A program made the translations under genes and the position numbers. Below, piece by piece: positions 6,250 through 57,570 of a DNA stretch of 64,000 nt (within the stretch, counting starts at the first letter, position 1; each line of letters begins with the position of its first letter). The DNA comes from a virus: the IMG/VR virus record IMGVR_UViG_3300044701_003160, positions 1 to 64,000 of that record; one strand, given 5' to 3'. Under the pieces are notes generated by a model. It searched no databases and was not told the DNA's origin. It worked only from the letters and a program-made list of their open reading frames with translations.

Positions 6250-9096
6250 TTAGTACATATCCTCATCCCATCTTTCTCCGCTTAAGTATTGTGCATCATA
6301 GGGGTAAGTATGGAAATTTCTCTTGGGGCAAGAAAGATCAATACCTGTTCTTGGGAAGGATTTAAATGCTAAAGGTAAAACAGATTTACTAACTTCGTAG
6401 GTTTCATTCCATTTTTCTGCATTATCATATAAGTATTTTTCTGGTTCAATTAGCATTCTTTTAATTCTATTATCAAATCTGGTACAGTAATGAGCACCGA
6501 TATAAGTCTCTGGTCTGGTTAAGAAGTTTGCATATTCTGCAAGTTCATACTTTCCAACTCTAACTTTGTCAATCAAACTATTATATTCTAGAGGAATATC
6601 AAAGAGGTATACTAAGTCTTCAGTTTTACCCCAAAAAATGTGATCTCTGGGATGAAAGACAAAGTTTGGAAATATTCCACCAACAAAGAGTTTATGATCG
6701 GTATGATTTTTTTTGAAGAAATCATACATCTTTACCATACTTTCTGTGGTATATTTCTGATCGGATCTCATTTTAGCTGCAAATTCAGTCTTGCATTCTT
6801 TAATCCCACATAAAGATGTAACAATTTGCAAGTTTTTGTTGCAAGTACCTGGAGTTGAAGGATATTTACTTCTTACAAATATTACATTATCATTATAATA
6901 TTTTTGTTGCTTATCATCTTCCCAACAAGAAACAATAATATTATTCACAAAGGGAAGTTTTAAATAATCTGAAATTATTTCGTCAGTATAATCATCATAT
7001 TGCCCCTGAAGAACAATATCAATCTTATCATTTTGTACTATATCAAATATTTCTACTTTCTCTTCTACTTTTGGATTGTCGTATGAAAAATAGATAATAA
7101 ATTGACCGAGATAAGTATTCTTCCAGTATTCTCTAAAGTCATACAGATATTGATCGTTAAAGATATCTTGTGTTACATCTTTTCCATTTCTTTCATAGAC
7201 GTGAAGATCTGAGCAATCTATTAGATAAAGATTACGAAATTCTATGAATTTTTCTACGGCATTATGGTGATCATTAATATGCCATTCTCCTGCACAATTT
7301 CTAACATTATTGCGAATGTACTCATAATTTTGTTTTGTGAAAATTGAATACTCTCCACCCTCACAATCAAACTTTAAGAAGTCAATCTTATTAATATTAT
7401 ATTCACTTATAATATTTTCAAATGTTGTAGTGCAGTAGGTATTTCCATTATGTTGGTAAATATATTCTCCACTCTCACCAATTATTTTTGATGATTCCTC
7501 TTTGTCACCAATTCCCTTGTTAATAATAGTAACTGGTCCATGGCCAATATTCTTTTTTAAGTACTCAACAATTGTATTTGAAGGTTCTACACAATAAACG
7601 TGTTTTGGATTTTTGTTTAATATAGAATATGTAAATGACCCACAGTTTGCTCCTGCATCAAAAACAATATCGCCTTCACTTACTTGATGATGCTTTTCAT
7701 AAGTTCTTTCAATAAAGTTCTCATTACTGAACATTTGAGCATATTCTGGATCTGTGGGCCCCCAATCAAAATTTGTTGGAACTAAAAAATCACTAAAATA
7801 ATTCTTTAAGTTGTTGAGAACAATATTTCTATGATCTTCACTCATATTATAGTTGTCAAGTAAATCTTTAAATAAGAGACCAGATTCTTCATTTTTACCC
7901 CACCACCATCCTGAAATTGCTTTCAGTAGTATCAATCCATATTTTCCTGGATACTCAACGTCACTCTCAAGTGGTTTGACATTAAAATCTGCGAATGTTA
8001 ATGCAGTATTTGCATAGATGTAACAATCTTGCCACTGATCTTTCTTTTCAGAGAATTTACCCAATAAGTAATATGCTTCTGGTCTATTCGGAAGTAGGCA
8101 AAGTGCTTGCTGCAGAATACCTTTCGCAGTTAAATCTCTTGTTCCTTGCTTATCATAACAATTAGATGCGTGAATTAATGCCTCATATGCAAAAGTATCA
8201 TCATCTGCTCTCTCCGCACAACGGAGAAAATAAGATAAAGCAGGTGATGAATGTCCTTCTTTCTCATACCAAAGACCCAAGGCAAAGTTTTTTTCTGCAT
8301 TTTCTGGATCTAATGCATATTCAATTAAAACTTCTTCAATATCAGTTTTTGTATTGTTATCTGGAATTCCCATAATTTTTTTCAGCGAAACTTTATTCTT
8401 GTTTTCTTTCCACCAGTTAACTACAAAGTCATAACTTTCGTTGTGGTAACCTTTTTGGCCATCAAATTCTTTAAATGTTGTAGGTATGTCAATATTTTCA
8501 ACAAACAATTCAATACTATAAACCTTTCCGTGCCCGAAAAATAAAACATTTTCTGGCATAGGAACAAAATTGCCAGGTATCGTAACATCATAGACATCAC
8601 CAAAAATATGTCTATCAATTATCTTCTTGGCATATTCTCTAGTGATAATATAAGCAGTAGCCGACCAGTCATCGTGAGATTTTTCTCTTAGTTCTATGTT
8701 TTGATAGAAGGGTCTTACAGTTGCTAGATGAACGCATTCCGCATCATCTGGAAGATTACTAATAAATTCTTCCCAAGTAAAATTCCAATATTTTACAAGT
8801 TCAAAACTTACATCATCCTCACAAAAGAATGCATAATCATCATCACATTCTTCGTACCATTTTTTAATTGCTTTAAGGTGAGAAATTATAGTTCCTCTAG
8901 TACCAGAATCTAAAGTATCTAATAGTTCTCCTGTAATTTTGTCATCACATTCAGAGAATCTTTTGGATATAATTGGATAAACTGAACTAATATTATATTC
9001 AGAAAATTGTTGTTGCAATAAGTTTTGCCTATCTACACTTTCCTCAAGAGAAATATAATAAACTTTAGGAAAGTGTTTTAATTTATTTGAAATCAT
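6250..9096 (-). CDS. Multidomain GT25 / TPR / FkbM methyltransferase / WavE-like protein, 948 aa
   Basis: Four domains are visible in order. Residues about 8-240: GT25 (LPS-type) glycosyltransferase with VYYISLEESVDRQ near the start and FFCEDDVSFE near residue 95. About 265-430: TPR-like helical repeats (FALGLWYEKEG, AYYLLGKFSEKK). About 478-660: FkbM-type SAM methyltransferase with VFDAGANCGSF and LKFDCEGGE. About 697-945: WavE-like LPS synthesis domain (IVLQGQYDD, AKMRSDQKY). Start chosen at the first ATG (9096); the longer frame would need TTG. It overlaps the epimerase gene by 14 bases and is the last gene of the operon. It probably transfers and methylates a sugar; acceptor unknown. Cytoplasmic. 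Confidence 0.85.
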   Translation of the reverse strand: MISNKLKHFPKVYYISLEESVDRQNLLQQQFSEYNISSVYPIISKRFSECDDKITGELLDTLDSGTRGTIISHLKAIKKWYEECDDDYAFFCEDDVSFELVKYWNFTWEEFISNLPDDAECVHLATVRPFYQNIELREKSHDDWSATAYIITREYAKKIIDRHIFGDVYDVTIPGNFVPMPENVLFFGHGKVYSIELFVENIDIPTTFKEFDGQKGYHNESYDFVVNWWKENKNKVSLKKIMGIPDNNTKTDIEEVLIEYALDPENAEKNFALGLWYEKEGHSSPALSYFLRCAERADDDTFAYEALIHASNCYDKQGTRDLTAKGILQQALCLLPNRPEAYYLLGKFSEKKDQWQDCYIYANTALTFADFNVKPLESDVEYPGKYGLILLKAISGWWWGKNEESGLLFKDLLDNYNMSEDHRNIVLNNLKNYFSDFLVPTNFDWGPTDPEYAQMFSNENFIERTYEKHHQVSEGDIVFDAGANCGSFTYSILNKNPKHVYCVEPSNTIVEYLKKNIGHGPVTIINKGIGDKEESSKIIGESGEYIYQHNGNTYCTTTFENIISEYNINKIDFLKFDCEGGEYSIFTKQNYEYIRNNVRNCAGEWHINDHHNAVEKFIEFRNLYLIDCSDLHVYERNGKDVTQDIFNDQYLYDFREYWKNTYLGQFIIYFSYDNPKVEEKVEIFDIVQNDKIDIVLQGQYDDYTDEIISDYLKLPFVNNIIVSCWEDDKQQKYYNDNVIFVRSKYPSTPGTCNKNLQIVTSLCGIKECKTEFAAKMRSDQKYTTESMVKMYDFFKKNHTDHKLFVGGIFPNFVFHPRDHIFWGKTEDLVYLFDIPLEYNSLIDKVRVGKYELAEYANFLTRPETYIGAHYCTRFDNRIKRMLIEPEKYLYDNAEKWNETYEVSKSVLPLAFKSFPRTGIDLSCPKRNFHTYPYDAQYLSGERWDEDMY

Positions 9097-10078
9097 TTTT
9101 AATTTGCACGGCAACTTGTTTAATCAAATCTTCAATATTTAAATTAGGTTTCCACTCAAGGATTTTTTGTGCTTTTTCAAAAGAACCAATAGATTTTCTA
9201 ATAGTCTCTTGCCTCACAGTTTCTTTATTTAGAGCATATTTGCCATCGAACAATTTTGGATATCTACTCCAAAGTTCCTCTGCGGGTTTATATGAAAGAG
9301 GTATGTGATTGCAATTTAGTGCTTCAGAAACCCATTTTCCAATTTGATTTACACTATAATTTAAACCAGTACAAACATTAAAAGTATCATTCGGTTTCTT
9401 TTTTAAACAAATTTCTATCATAGAAATAATATCTTCAACCCAAATAAAATCTCTGGTTTGAGTTCCATCACCACTTAAACAAGGAGATACTCCAGAAAGG
9501 AACTCTCTTACCAGAAAATTTACCAAAGGTGGATGAGTTCTACGATAATCTCCATCTGGACCAAAAACATTAAAGAACCGAAGAGTGGTAATTTGCATAT
9601 TGTAGTTTTCCCTGTAAGATTCTACAATATCTTCGGCCATCTTTTTTGAAGATGAATAGTATAACTTTGGATTTAACTCTAAGTTTTCTGTAAAAATATC
9701 TACTTCACAATTTTCATATACTGCACTCGTGCTGGAAAAAATAATATGAGGGATTTCGTGATTCTTAGCAAATTCTAAAATATTTGCAACACCACCAACA
9801 TTTGTCCAAATTGTTTCTAGTGGATTTATTTCACAATCTGGAAGTGATGTTATTGCTGCCAAATGAATGATAGCATCAAACTTTGAATCTAATAAAGCAA
9901 AGGGTTTTGAAATATCAATATTAAAAAATGGAGCAATTAACTCTCCATTTACCTCAAGGTTTGATTTGTATCCATTTCTGAGGCTATCAACTAAAACCAA
10001 ATCGTGTCCGTTTTCAATTAATCTTTTAGAGATACCACAACCAATCTGGCCAGCAGCACCTGTAACAAGTATCTTCAT
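9083..10078 (-). CDS. NAD-dependent nucleotide-sugar epimerase/dehydratase (extended SDR), 331 aa
   Basis: Classic extended short-chain dehydrogenase/reductase. The Rossmann motif VTGAAGQIGCGIS is at residues 5-17, DIS and HLAAITS in the cofactor site, and the catalytic YSSSK is near residue 140 with the upstream Ser in FSSTSAVY. C-terminal residues RDFIWVEDII are typical of UDP-glucose 4-epimerase-like enzymes. It interconverts a nucleotide sugar, most likely UDP- or dTDP-linked. The ATG overlaps the stop of the nucleotidyltransferase gene as ATGA (10075-10078), and its 3' end overlaps the giant glycosyltransferase gene. Confidence 0.9.
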   Translation of the reverse strand: MKILVTGAAGQIGCGISKRLIENGHDLVLVDSLRNGYKSNLEVNGELIAPFFNIDISKPFALLDSKFDAIIHLAAITSLPDCEINPLETIWTNVGGVANILEFAKNHEIPHIIFSSTSAVYENCEVDIFTENLELNPKLYYSSSKKMAEDIVESYRENYNMQITTLRFFNVFGPDGDYRRTHPPLVNFLVREFLSGVSPCLSGDGTQTRDFIWVEDIISMIEICLKKKPNDTFNVCTGLNYSVNQIGKWVSEALNCNHIPLSYKPAEELWSRYPKLFDGKYALNKETVRQETIRKSIGSFEKAQKILEWKPNLNIEDLIKQVAVQIKNDFK

Positions 10079-11133
10079 TCAAAAAACTCCTTTAGATTAT
10101 TTGCATTTCGTGGAATGTTGATGCCCTTGGCAGAAGGATATGGATTGCTTCTTGCAAAATCATTAATCACTACTCTCTGTGCGTGAGGTAATCCCATAAT
10201 CAGTTGATCATAAGGAATACCCTTCTCCTCCATTTCAAACACAGTAGTTTCCCTATGTTCTTCTGGTCTACTCGTTGTAAGAATAATCTTAACTTTACCA
10301 GAAGAATAAAGTTCATTTAGGTAATCTATATTCTCTTGTATTGCAGTTCCTTCTCCAACATAAGGTGGAAAATGAGTAGAAGAATTAGTCACCAAAGTTC
10401 CATCAATATCCACAAACAAACATTTATATTGTTTCTTATATGTATTCCAAGCATCTAGAGTTCCCCAATCCTTAAAGTTGGTTGTGGGCAATCCACGGAA
10501 AAGAGAACCAGAAAGTATCATTTCAAATATGATATGACTGACATAACATTCACCATCAATATCTGACAGTTTCTTATAGATCTCGCAGAATTCTAGAGCA
10601 CTTGCAAATCCATATCCACCAACAGAGAAAGTGGAACTAATCACCCTCTTCTCTACAATATTTGTAATGATATGGTTGATATCAAACTGCAAATAACTCT
10701 TGGTTTTTGCATTAATATTTTCCATATCATTCAGGTCAAAGTATGCAACCTGATTGATTGGTTCTGCAATCTCACACTCATAATATCCATCAGAGTCCTT
10801 GATGAATATGAATCCATCAATATTGGATTTATGAATGAGTTCACATACAGTTTCAGACTGTGATTTAGTTTGCTCGTCAAGAAATACGATATGAGACTTC
10901 TCCAGAAGACCTAGTTCATCCAGTTCGTGTGAGAAACCCTTATGAAATTGATATTTCTCTTCGTGTTGCTTTAAGCAAGCAAAGTAAATATCATCAAAGA
11001 ATTCTAGATTTAGTCCAAGTATTGATTCTATAGCCATAAAACGACCAGTCATCGGATGAGTAAGCATCCATTTTGGCCTCATATTTGGAAATCTAGATGA
11101 TTTCCCTGCCATAGGAACTATTAAAGTTCTCAT
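10075..11133 (-). CDS. Nucleotidyltransferase fused to HAD phosphatase, 352 aa
   Basis: Residues about 1-230 are a sugar- or choline-phosphate nucleotidyltransferase-like domain, with the N-terminal PMAGKSSRFPNMRPK (a G-x-G-x-R-F...PK variant). From about 235 there is a HAD domain starting FVDIDGTLV, with LTTSRP as motif II. The start at 11133 (MRTLIVPMAGKS) lies inside the end of the kinase gene, a 41-base overlap. Fusion with HAD and pairing with an APH kinase suggest phosphorylation then nucleotide activation of a small sugar, polyol or alcohol; the substrate is not evident. Confidence 0.8.
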   Translation of the reverse strand: MRTLIVPMAGKSSRFPNMRPKWMLTHPMTGRFMAIESILGLNLEFFDDIYFACLKQHEEKYQFHKGFSHELDELGLLEKSHIVFLDEQTKSQSETVCELIHKSNIDGFIFIKDSDGYYECEIAEPINQVAYFDLNDMENINAKTKSYLQFDINHIITNIVEKRVISSTFSVGGYGFASALEFCEIYKKLSDIDGECYVSHIIFEMILSGSLFRGLPTTNFKDWGTLDAWNTYKKQYKCLFVDIDGTLVTNSSTHFPPYVGEGTAIQENIDYLNELYSSGKVKIILTTSRPEEHRETTVFEMEEKGIPYDQLIMGLPHAQRVVINDFARSNPYPSAKGINIPRNANNLKEFFE

Positions 11134-11946
11134 ACAATTTTGTTGAAGATAAAATATTATCAAGTATAATTCCTTGATGTGAATTTGTCAAATATGGTTC
11201 TATTCTTAATATGTTAATAGTGTCAAGAACATCAAAACTTGAACTATGAATAAAATACTCGTACCTACTTTCCAGTTTCTCCCAAATGTATCTGTAAGTT
11301 TGAATAATACGAACAGAAGAAAGATTCTGAACCTTCAAACTCCAAAGATAATGTAAATCTTGTTTGATTTTTACAAGATCACATAGAAAACTATCCACAT
11401 AACAATCAAGAAAATCAATAAAGAACAAACGATTTGGATGAAAAAGGATATTGCTAAATGTCAAATCACCGTGACAAAATGTATTTGGAACAATTACTCG
11501 ATTTTCTTGAATTGAATTTTCTAGATAATCAATATAGTTTTTATGCGAACTATTTTCTTTGAGTGTTTGGATCTTACTTAAAACTTGATTAGTTACATCA
11601 ACCATCCTAAATCTGGATGAAAGATAATCAAAGTAACCAAAGAGAGTTTCAATTACAAAATCAATATTTTCTTTACTTGCAGAAGAAAAGAAATCATAAA
11701 AGGATAATCCCGGAACATATTCCATATCAAAAAAATATAAGTTCTCCTTGTTTACACTTAGAACTTTAGGAGTATCTATATTTTTTAATATTAAATTATA
11801 AAAAAAAATTGTTTATCTACTTGCTTTGATAATCTGAAATTATATTCAGAGGAAGATGAGTACTTACGAAGAGTACTATTGTCTAGAAGTTCTAGTTTGC
11901 ACCCAGACAATCCAGTATCAAATTGGTTTTTAATAATGTGCGTCAT
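11093..11946 (-). pseudogene. APH/choline-kinase-family kinase split by a -1 shift in a T9 run
   Basis: The gene starts with ATG at 11946, overlapping the previous TGA as ATGA, and reads MTHIIKNQFDTGLSGCKLEL as far as a run of nine T (11800-11808). Frame 0 then stops after six codons. One extra base restores a frame that continues FYNLILKNIDTPK into MEYVPGLSFYDFF and ends at 11093. The joined protein is 284 aa with the APH catalytic motif HGDLTFSNILF (about residue 159) and FIDFLD (metal-binding Asp). With one added base the length is exactly 285 codons. It could be a true frameshift mutation, a homopolymer sequencing error, or programmed -1 slippage on U9. Its place between glycan genes suggests it phosphorylates a sugar or alcohol. 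Confidence 0.8.
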
Positions 11947-13286
11947 TCTTTCATAAATTCTTCAATTGTTTGAGTGGAACCAATATTTCTCCACCAATTT
12001 AAATTATTATTATAAGATTCATAATGTGCCTTGTGAATTGGTTGTTTCTTTCCCTCTTCCGTATTTGGATCTAAATATGAAGGTAAGAAACTCAAATCCT
12101 CAGTAAACAAAGGAGCACCATAAACTTTACCTAATGGTGAGAATATAATTGTTTCAATCACAGGAATTTTTGCCCATTCGTCCCTAAGATGAACGTCACC
12201 GCCTTGGAGATTTAGATGAAACTTGCCGTCGTAATAGTATGCATCAATTAGTTTCTTTGCAAATTCTCTTTTAATAATATATGCACACCCAGACCAATCA
12301 CACCAGCAACGGTTTCTGAATCCAATTTTGAATGTATAAAATTCATATCTTAACCAAGCAAGTTGAACCATTTCCCAATCATTAGGAAGACTGTTATAGA
12401 AATCATCCCAAGTAAAGTTCCAGTATTGGACTAGTTCCATACTTAAATCATCTTCACAGAAGAAAGCAACTTCCTCTTCTGTATTATCATACCATTCTTT
12501 AATTGCCTTTAAGTGTGAAGTAACAGGGCCTCTGCTACCAATACTTAAGCGGTCAATATAATCACTTATAATTTTGTGTTGGGAATCATCATACTTCTGA
12601 AAGATATGCCCTGTGATATTCTCAATACCAAACTGAGAGAACTTTTGATGTAGTTTTTCTCTTCTTTCGGTACAGTAATCTACACTAATATAATGAACAG
12701 GAGGTAGATTCTTCAGTTTAGATGTATCTGGTTTATAGTGAATCCAGCACTTTTCTTCGGCAATAAAATCAGTCAGCAATTCGTTGACTGCCCGTTTAAC
12801 ACCAGGAAACCAATCATATTCTTCGTGATAATAATCGTGCCCTGCGAGTATTCCACCAGGTTTTACTTTAGGATACCAGGCAAGTATATCATCTCTCACA
12901 TCTTCGTATTCGTGTGAAGCATCAATAAAGACAAAATCGAGAGAGTTATCTTTAAATTTCTTTGCTGCTTCAAGAGAAGTCATCTTGAGAGGAAAATAAT
13001 ATTCTCCAACGGGTCTTAGATTATCAATAAAAATATCATAGAGTTTAGGCAACTCTTTCATTCCCTCGTGCTCTACACTTCCTTCCCAAGTATCTACACA
13101 AAAGAACTCAATATCTTTATTGGAATTAGCAATTTCAACGCACATATAGGCTGCCGATTTACCTTTCCAGCAACCAACTTCCACAAAACGACTTCCCGAA
13201 GGAAAGCGTTTTGCGATTCTGGAGTAAAGGTTGGGATAAGAAAACCAACCTTCACCAAAATTATCACTTCCGCAAATGTGTTCCAT
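11943..13286 (-). CDS. SAM methyltransferase fused to GT25 glycosyltransferase, 447 aa
   Basis: Residues about 10-190 are a class I methyltransferase of the CmcI/Methyltransf_24 type: FVEVGCWKGKSA near residue 35, FCVDTWEG, and FVFIDASHEYEDVRDD with KPGGILAGHDYY. Residues about 200-445 are a GT25-type glycosyltransferase: VHYISVDYCTERREKL, SRGPVTSHLKAIKEWYD, and FFCEDDLSMEL near 275. The second half resembles the N-terminal domain of the 6250-9096 protein, so the two are paralogous. Its ATG overlaps the upstream stop as TAATG (13284-13288) and its TGA overlaps the kinase ATG. Confidence 0.85.
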   Translation of the reverse strand: MEHICGSDNFGEGWFSYPNLYSRIAKRFPSGSRFVEVGCWKGKSAAYMCVEIANSNKDIEFFCVDTWEGSVEHEGMKELPKLYDIFIDNLRPVGEYYFPLKMTSLEAAKKFKDNSLDFVFIDASHEYEDVRDDILAWYPKVKPGGILAGHDYYHEEYDWFPGVKRAVNELLTDFIAEEKCWIHYKPDTSKLKNLPPVHYISVDYCTERREKLHQKFSQFGIENITGHIFQKYDDSQHKIISDYIDRLSIGSRGPVTSHLKAIKEWYDNTEEEVAFFCEDDLSMELVQYWNFTWDDFYNSLPNDWEMVQLAWLRYEFYTFKIGFRNRCWCDWSGCAYIIKREFAKKLIDAYYYDGKFHLNLQGGDVHLRDEWAKIPVIETIIFSPLGKVYGAPLFTEDLSFLPSYLDPNTEEGKKQPIHKAHYESYNNNLNWWRNIGSTQTIEEFMKE

Positions 13287-16979: not shown

Positions 16980-18170
16980 TTATGTTCCATATTCAATAAT
17001 AAAGATTAAACCATCACCACCAGCACCACCAACAGCACCACCAGCACCAGCATTACTTAAGTTTCTGGATGCACCACCACCACCACCTGCACCTGGAGTA
17101 GATGTTACGGATGCACCTGCTGAAGCAGTGTTTGTAACAGTATATCCACCACTACCACCACCAGCATAGAATGATGCTCCACCATTACCACCAGCAGCAA
17201 ATGCAGCAACAGAAGCAACAGCAAATCCAGATTGCCCTCTTGCATTAATATCTCCACCTGTTGCAGCACCACCAGTTCCACCGTCTGCATAAACTGCAGT
17301 CGCAGCAGTAGAGTTTCCTGTTCCTCCTAGTCCACCATTTGCGGTTAGATCTGCACCAGCACCGGCAGGATTAAATGTTGTTGTTCCTCCAGTTGCACCA
17401 GTTGCACCAGCGGTTGTTCCACCAGCACCACCAAGTCCAATCGCATATGTTGCATTTGCACCCAGTTCTGCAATTGTATAAAGTTTAATTGCAGTTCCTC
17501 CTGCACCTCCTCCTGCACCAACAGATGAATTAGAGGTATCAGTTCCTGATGCATTTCCACCTCCACCACCTGCACCAGTACAGTAAACCATAATATGAGT
17601 TGTTCCTGCTGTTGGAGTATATGTAGTGCCTGAAGTAAGTGCAATTTCTCTTACTGTTGCGATACCTGCAGAACCAGAAGTACCAAGAGGTCCTTGAAGT
17701 CCTTGAGTGCCTTGAGAACTTAATCCACCTTGAACTCCTTGATTTGCAAGGCCTTGAAGACCCTGAAGACCTTGAGTACCTTGATTACTTAAACCTTGAG
17801 TACCTTGATTACTTAAACCCTGAGCCCCTTGATTTGCAAGGCCTTGAAGACCCTGAAGACCTTGAGTACCCTGGTTTCCTGTTCCTTGAACACCTTGAAT
17901 TGAGATACCTTGAGTACCTTGTCTTCCTTGAAGTCCTTGAGTGCCCTGGTTTCCTGTTCCTTGAAGACCTTGAGTACCTTGATTACTTAGACCTTGAGTT
18001 CCTTGATTGCCTGTTCCTTGGAGACCTTGAGTACCTTGGTTTGAAAGACCTTGAGTTCCTTGGTTCCCTGTTCCTTGGAGACCCTGAAGACCTTGAGAAC
18101 CTTGGAGACCCTGAGCACCTTGAGTACCTTCAAATGTCGAACCTAAGAATGTAGAAAGATTTGTCGGCAT
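16980..18170 (-). CDS. Collagen-like tail fibre with Gly-rich C-terminal tip, 396 aa
   Basis: Residues 11-160 are Gly-X-Y repeats in which Y is nearly always Gln (GTQGLQG, GNQGTQG). After a short strand region, residues about 195-390 are exceptionally Gly/Ala-rich (GAGGGGG, GGAGGTTAG, GAGGGGGASR) and end FIIEYGT. This resembles Gly-rich adhesin tips of phage fibres such as polyglycine-helix gp38 types. A trimeric collagen shaft with an adhesin head is the likely structure. Its partner chaperone gene follows at once. Confidence 0.8.
   Translation of the reverse strand: MPTNLSTFLGSTFEGTQGAQGLQGSQGLQGLQGTGNQGTQGLSNQGTQGLQGTGNQGTQGLSNQGTQGLQGTGNQGTQGLQGRQGTQGISIQGVQGTGNQGTQGLQGLQGLANQGAQGLSNQGTQGLSNQGTQGLQGLQGLANQGVQGGLSSQGTQGLQGPLGTSGSAGIATVREIALTSGTTYTPTAGTTHIMVYCTGAGGGGGNASGTDTSNSSVGAGGGAGGTAIKLYTIAELGANATYAIGLGGAGGTTAGATGATGGTTTFNPAGAGADLTANGGLGGTGNSTAATAVYADGGTGGAATGGDINARGQSGFAVASVAAFAAGGNGGASFYAGGGSGGYTVTNTASAGASVTSTPGAGGGGGASRNLSNAGAGGAVGGAGGDGLIFIIEYGT
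17690..18135 (-). repeat. Collagen-like coding repeat array
   Basis: Tandem 9-bp units coding Gly-X-Gln (about 48 triplets). Near-identical units are shared with the arrays at 18915-19560, 24785-25385, 26150-26760 and 30270-31725. Confidence 0.85.
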
Positions 18171-57094: not shown

Positions 57095-57165
57095 AGCCTC
57101 TAGACAGAATTGAACTGTCGTCTCCGCTTTACAAGAGCGGTGCATCACCACAATGCTTTAGAGGC
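57095..57165 (-). tRNA. tRNA-Thr (UGU)
   Basis: Reads GCCTCTA at the 5' end pairing with TAGAGGC at the 3' end (seven bp). D-arm with GTGG, anticodon stem CCGCT/AGCGG with loop CTTGTAA (anticodon TGT), T-arm GACAG TTCAATT CTGTC. 71 nt with the discriminator, no encoded CCA. Promoter at 57175-57203. Confidence 0.9.
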
Positions 57166-57174
57166 AATAAAAAT

Positions 57175-57203
57175 AGTATAAGATACCTAAAGGATTTCGT
57201 CAA
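57175..57203 (-). promoter_or_regulatory. Sigma70-like early promoter
   Basis: Minus strand: -35 TTGACG (57198-57203), 17-bp spacer, -10 TATACT (57175-57180). The -35 lies in the last codons (Leu-Asp-Glu) of the gene ending at 57187. It drives tRNA-Thr and the short gene behind it. Confidence 0.75.
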
Positions 57204-57465
57204 GCACTTCTGGATTTTCAAGGTCCATTTCAAATAAACAAGGATGTGCTTCTTCGTCTATAAGATAGAATGATTTTTGATAGAAAATTTCTGGAGTCAT
57301 CGTAAGTTGTTGTTCTGCTCTTTCAATAATTTCTGGATTGTCCTGCATAATTGATGGAACATCATCAAATGTGAATGGAATTCCGTTTATATAATAAGTT
57401 TTGATTATAAACCTATCTTCATCAGTTTCGTACCAATTATAAGAACAAGTAATCTTATATTTCAT
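57187..57465 (-). CDS. Hypothetical protein, 92 aa
   Basis: Starts MKYKITCSYNWYETDEDRFI and is acidic with a mixed alpha/beta pattern (GIPFTFDDVPSIMQDNPEII). No motif recognised. The end codes Leu-Asp-Glu-Ile-Leu and holds the -35 of the next promoter. It lies between the two tRNA genes. ATTAAATAA just upstream could be a weak late motif. Confidence 0.65.
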   Translation of the reverse strand: MKYKITCSYNWYETDEDRFIIKTYYINGIPFTFDDVPSIMQDNPEIIERAEQQLTMTPEIFYQKSFYLIDEEAHPCLFEMDLENPEVLDEIL

Positions 57466-57490
57466 TGGCGTTTTTTGATTATTTATTTAA

Positions 57491-57563
57491 TACCCGTGGT
57501 CGGATTCGAACCGACCCTGGAGGCGTTTTAAGCGCCCTGTCTCTGCCGCTGGACTACACGGGC
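57491..57563 (-). tRNA. tRNA with UAA anticodon (Leu), short variable arm
   Basis: Acceptor GCCCGTG pairs with CACGGGT (one G-T). Anticodon stem GGGCG/CGCCT encloses the loop CTTAAAA, giving anticodon TAA (Leu, codon UUA). T-arm GTCGG TTCGAAT CCGAC. 73 nt including discriminator A. The variable loop is only five bases (CCAGG), unlike bacterial Leu tRNAs, which carry a long variable arm. Confidence 0.8.
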
Positions 57564-57570
57564 ATAAAAA

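Follow-up and report, generated by a model that had tools for sequence, protein, structure and literature searches.

Is a kinase gene that changes its reading frame at a run of nine T a regulatory device of its phage, the result of a mutation, or a flaw in the consensus sequence? The question arises from the window, by which we mean the whole stretch of 64,000 nucleotides analysed here, i.e., the initial 64 kb of a virus record that totals 219,018 bases. Judged by its tail-fibre and baseplate protein families, the record is that of a tailed phage, and its one named relative points to a marine phage. With about even confidence we favour a real and recent one-base indel, private to this phage, at a slippery run where leaky rescue is likely.

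The kinase gene and its change of frame

The gene lies on the minus strand and starts with an ATG at 11946, which is overlapped by the stop of the upstream gene (ATGA). Its frame-0 ORF (11791..11946) comprises 51 codons for the N-terminal part of the kinase, with the GLSGC loop, the conserved Lys28 and helix C, and is closed by a TAA at 11791-11793, after the T run. The catalytic part, characterised by HGDLTFSNILF and IDFLD, is in the -1 frame relative to the N-terminal part. This frame is open over 11093..11812 (minus strand); its first ATG is found at 11725, and the ORF 11093-11725 encodes the catalytic part of an APH-fold kinase. The reading frame switches at nine T located exactly at 11800-11808, and a -1-frame TAA at 11815, together with the TAA of frame 0, confines the shift to about 20 bases that contain the run. 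Read-through would yield a joined product of 284 amino acids plus stop. This product aligns with that of the nearest relative, L005, over the full length at 85%, with no gap where the two halves meet, and matches Pfam APH slightly better (34.1 bits) than does the C-terminal part alone (32.0 bits). The preliminary description of this DNA had given the ATGA overlap, the two frames, the coordinates of the run, the position of the catalytic half and a joined gene of 285 codons, and all of this proved accurate.

The junction also has the make-up of a slippery site. The codons CAA TTT TTT TTT ATA hold U_UUU_UUU in zero-frame phase, which is the pattern of X_XXY_YYZ heptamers, and nine uninterrupted T form a run of the type at which transcriptional slippage occurs. 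Such runs are scarce in this phage. The entire record has four T9/A9 runs, the remaining three being placed in intact ORFs (two) or after a terminator-like hairpin (one). In the window T9 is rarer than expected by chance (2 observed versus 7.0 in shuffles), and TTT-TTT codon pairs are avoided between 3871 and 63977 (4 observed versus 12.6 expected, p 2e-4); both observations fit the assumption that T runs are harmful or costly. AAA-AAA codon pairs in the same range are not significantly avoided (14 versus 17.6 expected). The analyses made revealed no sign of the run being maintained for a regulatory role.

Fold of the kinase and its genomic neighbours

The gene product is a small-molecule kinase of the APH fold. 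All 38 of 38 family members match Pfam APH, and H159, G160, D161, N166 and D178, i.e., the catalytic HGD...N and I-D motifs, are invariant. The bilobal fold was judged on a structure model of the L005 protein (pLDDT 90.4), whose top Foldseek matches are APH(2'') enzymes. In this model the T run maps to the end of helix C, and the 51-residue product therefore comprises no more than the beginning of the N-lobe. Despite the common Pfam family and the Foldseek matches, APH(2'')-Ia and APH(2'')-IVa differ from the phage kinases by an identity of 11-20% and a TM of about 0.5-0.6; bacterial relatives of the kinase are ~30% identical.

The surroundings point to a function other than that of the APH(2'') resistance enzymes. 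Upstream is a methyltransferase-domain gene (11943..13286, minus strand), the stop of which overlaps the kinase ATG. Downstream follows a nucleotidyltransferase-like protein whose C-terminal part is HAD-like (10075..11133, minus strand), its probable start giving a 41-nt overlap with the 3' end of the kinase gene, then, in the same gene run, an NAD-dependent sugar epimerase/dehydratase (9083..10078, minus strand) and a glycosyltransferase-methyltransferase protein. We infer that the kinase belongs to a cassette of surface-glycan type, made of kinase, nucleotidyltransferase-HAD, epimerase, glycosyl- and methyltransferases, in a large tailed phage. Because nucleotidyltransferase and epimerase genes adjoin, a glycan-precursor kinase is likelier than drug resistance, and from the same neighbours the substrate is probably a sugar or polyol.

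An intact kinase ORF sits directly upstream of, and overlaps, the nucleotidyltransferase-HAD gene in 43 of the 43 loci with upstream DNA present. In the relatives the two genes form a conserved unit and overlap by close to 40 nt. A second kinase of the same family was not found in the whole 219 kb record, and a compensating paralogue was accordingly dismissed. Elsewhere the window contains a pair of minus-strand tRNA genes for Thr(tgt) and Leu(taa) (57095-57564) and a protein with long collagen-like repeats of the GxQG type (16980-18170), as seen in phage tail fibres.

The site in related phages

A first scan found 21 loci, a profile scan 80 related phage loci, which correspond to 60 distinct genes. 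In 79 of the 80 the kinase is encoded in one frame, and in none does a run of nine T occur anywhere in the kinase gene; the search of homologues for the same run, which the preliminary description had proposed, thus yielded none. At the site L005 reads AAACAAAATTTTTTTTAT, while the window reads AAACAATTTTTTTTTAT and is one base shorter. L027 and L028 (76%) read AAGCAGAATTTTTTCTAT, and since they share the longer form with L005, this form, which codes for Q-N-F-F-Y, is taken as ancestral and that of the window as derived. Window and L005 are at least two changes apart at this site. L030 and L034 have A4T8 at the same codons, which implies that the stretch is prone to building runs. When the region of 9.05-13.3 kb is compared with L005 and L027, the T9 base is the only difference that breaks a frame; every other gap has a length divisible by three. 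As the sequences stand, the break is private to this phage, derived and unaccompanied by other lesions.

The only other broken copy of the kinase is that of L022 (IMG/VR contig 3300046171_000255). In comparison with L006, each of three consecutive genes over L022:4142-6685 is divided between two frames. As the genes before and after its kinase are broken too, L022 looks like an error-rich contig or assembly, and a loss of the kinase throughout the family was discarded. Length variants of the T run with the flanks of the window, as a phase-variable (contingency) tract should display among isolates, were not found in viral_contigs, a collection that may lack near-identical records; a looser run pattern met 19 loci there, none of them with a kinase. 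Among phage records there is one relative at 49% and no near DNA match.

The same alignments revealed a change in relatedness downstream of the kinase. In the window at 9000-10100, identity to L005 drops from ~0.95 to 0.60-0.75 near 10,040, that to L027 stays near 0.88. The pattern points to a recombination breakpoint where the epimerase gene begins.

Mutation, error or programmed slippage

If nothing slips, the gene yields 51 residues without catalytic residues, and one could regard it as a pseudogene decaying in a phage for which the kinase is dispensable. We consider this quite unlikely. The gene has a single lesion, and dN/dS against L005 is 0.125 for the N-terminal and 0.144 for the C-terminal part, within the range of the neighbours (0.06-0.17); the partner nucleotidyltransferase-HAD gene is strongly conserved (0.061). 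Polarised with L027, a distant outgroup that makes such counts rough, the C-terminal part displays 15 nonsynonymous and 15 synonymous changes on the window branch and 17 and 28 on that of L005. The nonsynonymous share of the window branch is slightly higher, not significantly so (Fisher p 0.35). The counts reject neutral evolution along the full branch (p 0.001-0.006) but are compatible with it over as much as about half of the branch. Judged from these rates, the kinase gene is, or was until recently, under selection, which in the C-terminal part is purifying, and is not a decayed pseudogene. Alternatively the break might be a built-in device that sets the dose of the kinase through slippage on U9, either of ribosomes (-1 on U_UUU_UUU) or of RNA polymerase. 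The correctly phased heptamer within T9, the nearby frame-0 stop, the overlap of the two frames at nothing but the run, and known systems that employ T9/A9 likewise (PMC1088944, PMC4256274) speak for it. Against it, run and split are absent from all relatives outside the error-rich contig, neither half is a complete kinase, and in the relatives a single frame encodes the kinase, with the same gene order. Nor did we find a significant stimulatory structure downstream of the run (fold z-scores -1.58, 0.05, -0.89), and no Shine-Dalgarno-like stimulator upstream of it was seen by eye. We therefore rate programmed slippage as very improbable. The preliminary description had listed slippage, mutation and error, with a preference for a -1 ribosomal shift that would set the amount of kinase. 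Slippage as such is possible because of the in-phase U_UUU_UUU; the programmed, dosage-setting role is not supported, given the lack of a conserved site or split and of a significant structure. Re-initiation at the ATG at 11725 as a functional second gene was also rejected: an AAGGAG lies ~18 nt upstream and is missing in L005, and the product would be devoid of the glycine-rich loop and Lys28.

More serious is the possibility that the missing base is an error of sequencing or assembly at a homopolymer and that the kinase of the real phage is intact. The site is a long homopolymer, the kinase protein is otherwise perfect and selected, and L022, likewise from IMG/VR, appears to hold such errors in three consecutive genes. 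In the GeneTack survey, BLAST-supported singleton frameshifts are expected to be mostly sequencing errors (PMC3711429), and the present case is a singleton with protein support. These arguments have to be weighed against the state of the remaining sequence. A dicodon scan of 124 kb, i.e., the window plus three further 20-kb stretches, detected no further clear break of a frame on the strand that bears the genes and left some short flags, each 12-20 codons long; the many flags on the plus strand were taken for shadow ORFs of genes on the minus strand and disregarded. With no other clear break and two further nine-base runs in intact ORFs, the assembly is not generally error-rich. A single local error keeps a substantial probability, if one short of even, and the available comparisons do not separate it from mutation.

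The real, private indel, which we prefer, suggests the following course of events. Within the conserved K-Q-x-F-F stretch, and in this lineage only, an A/T run would have become T9 and, relative to the relatives, lost one base, whereby the catalytic part fell into the -1 frame; the indel would be recent. Most translation should then end after 51 residues. If T9 is real, some full-length kinase is likely still made, U9 being long enough for slippage of RNA polymerase or ribosome. The next gene, with its start within the kinase 3' end, would lose part of its translational coupling. One may go further and speculate that the frameshifted allele is fixed in the population of this phage and that the kinase is made only via slippage on U9, so that slippage in the transcript would set its dose and, by coupling, that of the nucleotidyltransferase-HAD protein; this we regard as improbable. 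Should the indel be real, it would be a clear phage example of a homopolymer indel in a conserved gene, in a run as long as those at which slippage is known to permit rescue. In any event, comparison with relatives has to precede the labelling of a slippery run as a programmed frameshift.

Slippage at 9A or 9T is documented (PMC1088944). In mxiE of Shigella flexneri and tssM1 of Citrobacter rodentium, two ORFs are connected by transcriptional slippage on a run of T or A (PMC1088944, PMC4256274). The phage kinase resembles these genes in having two overlapping ORFs with a long run at the junction, and in that a full protein requires a base gained in the transcript. It differs in that slippage there is reported or demonstrated, whereas at the phage break, a singleton absent from all relatives, it is putative. 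Another parallel is provided by Blochmannia and Buchnera, where frameshifted genes in poly(A) or poly(T) tracts are possibly corrected by slippage (PMC3017870). Common to these cases and ours are an A/T-rich genome, a single homopolymer indel and a gene that is otherwise intact and selected. Here, however, the gene is that of a phage and one such case was found, whereas the indels of the endosymbionts include ones conserved between species.
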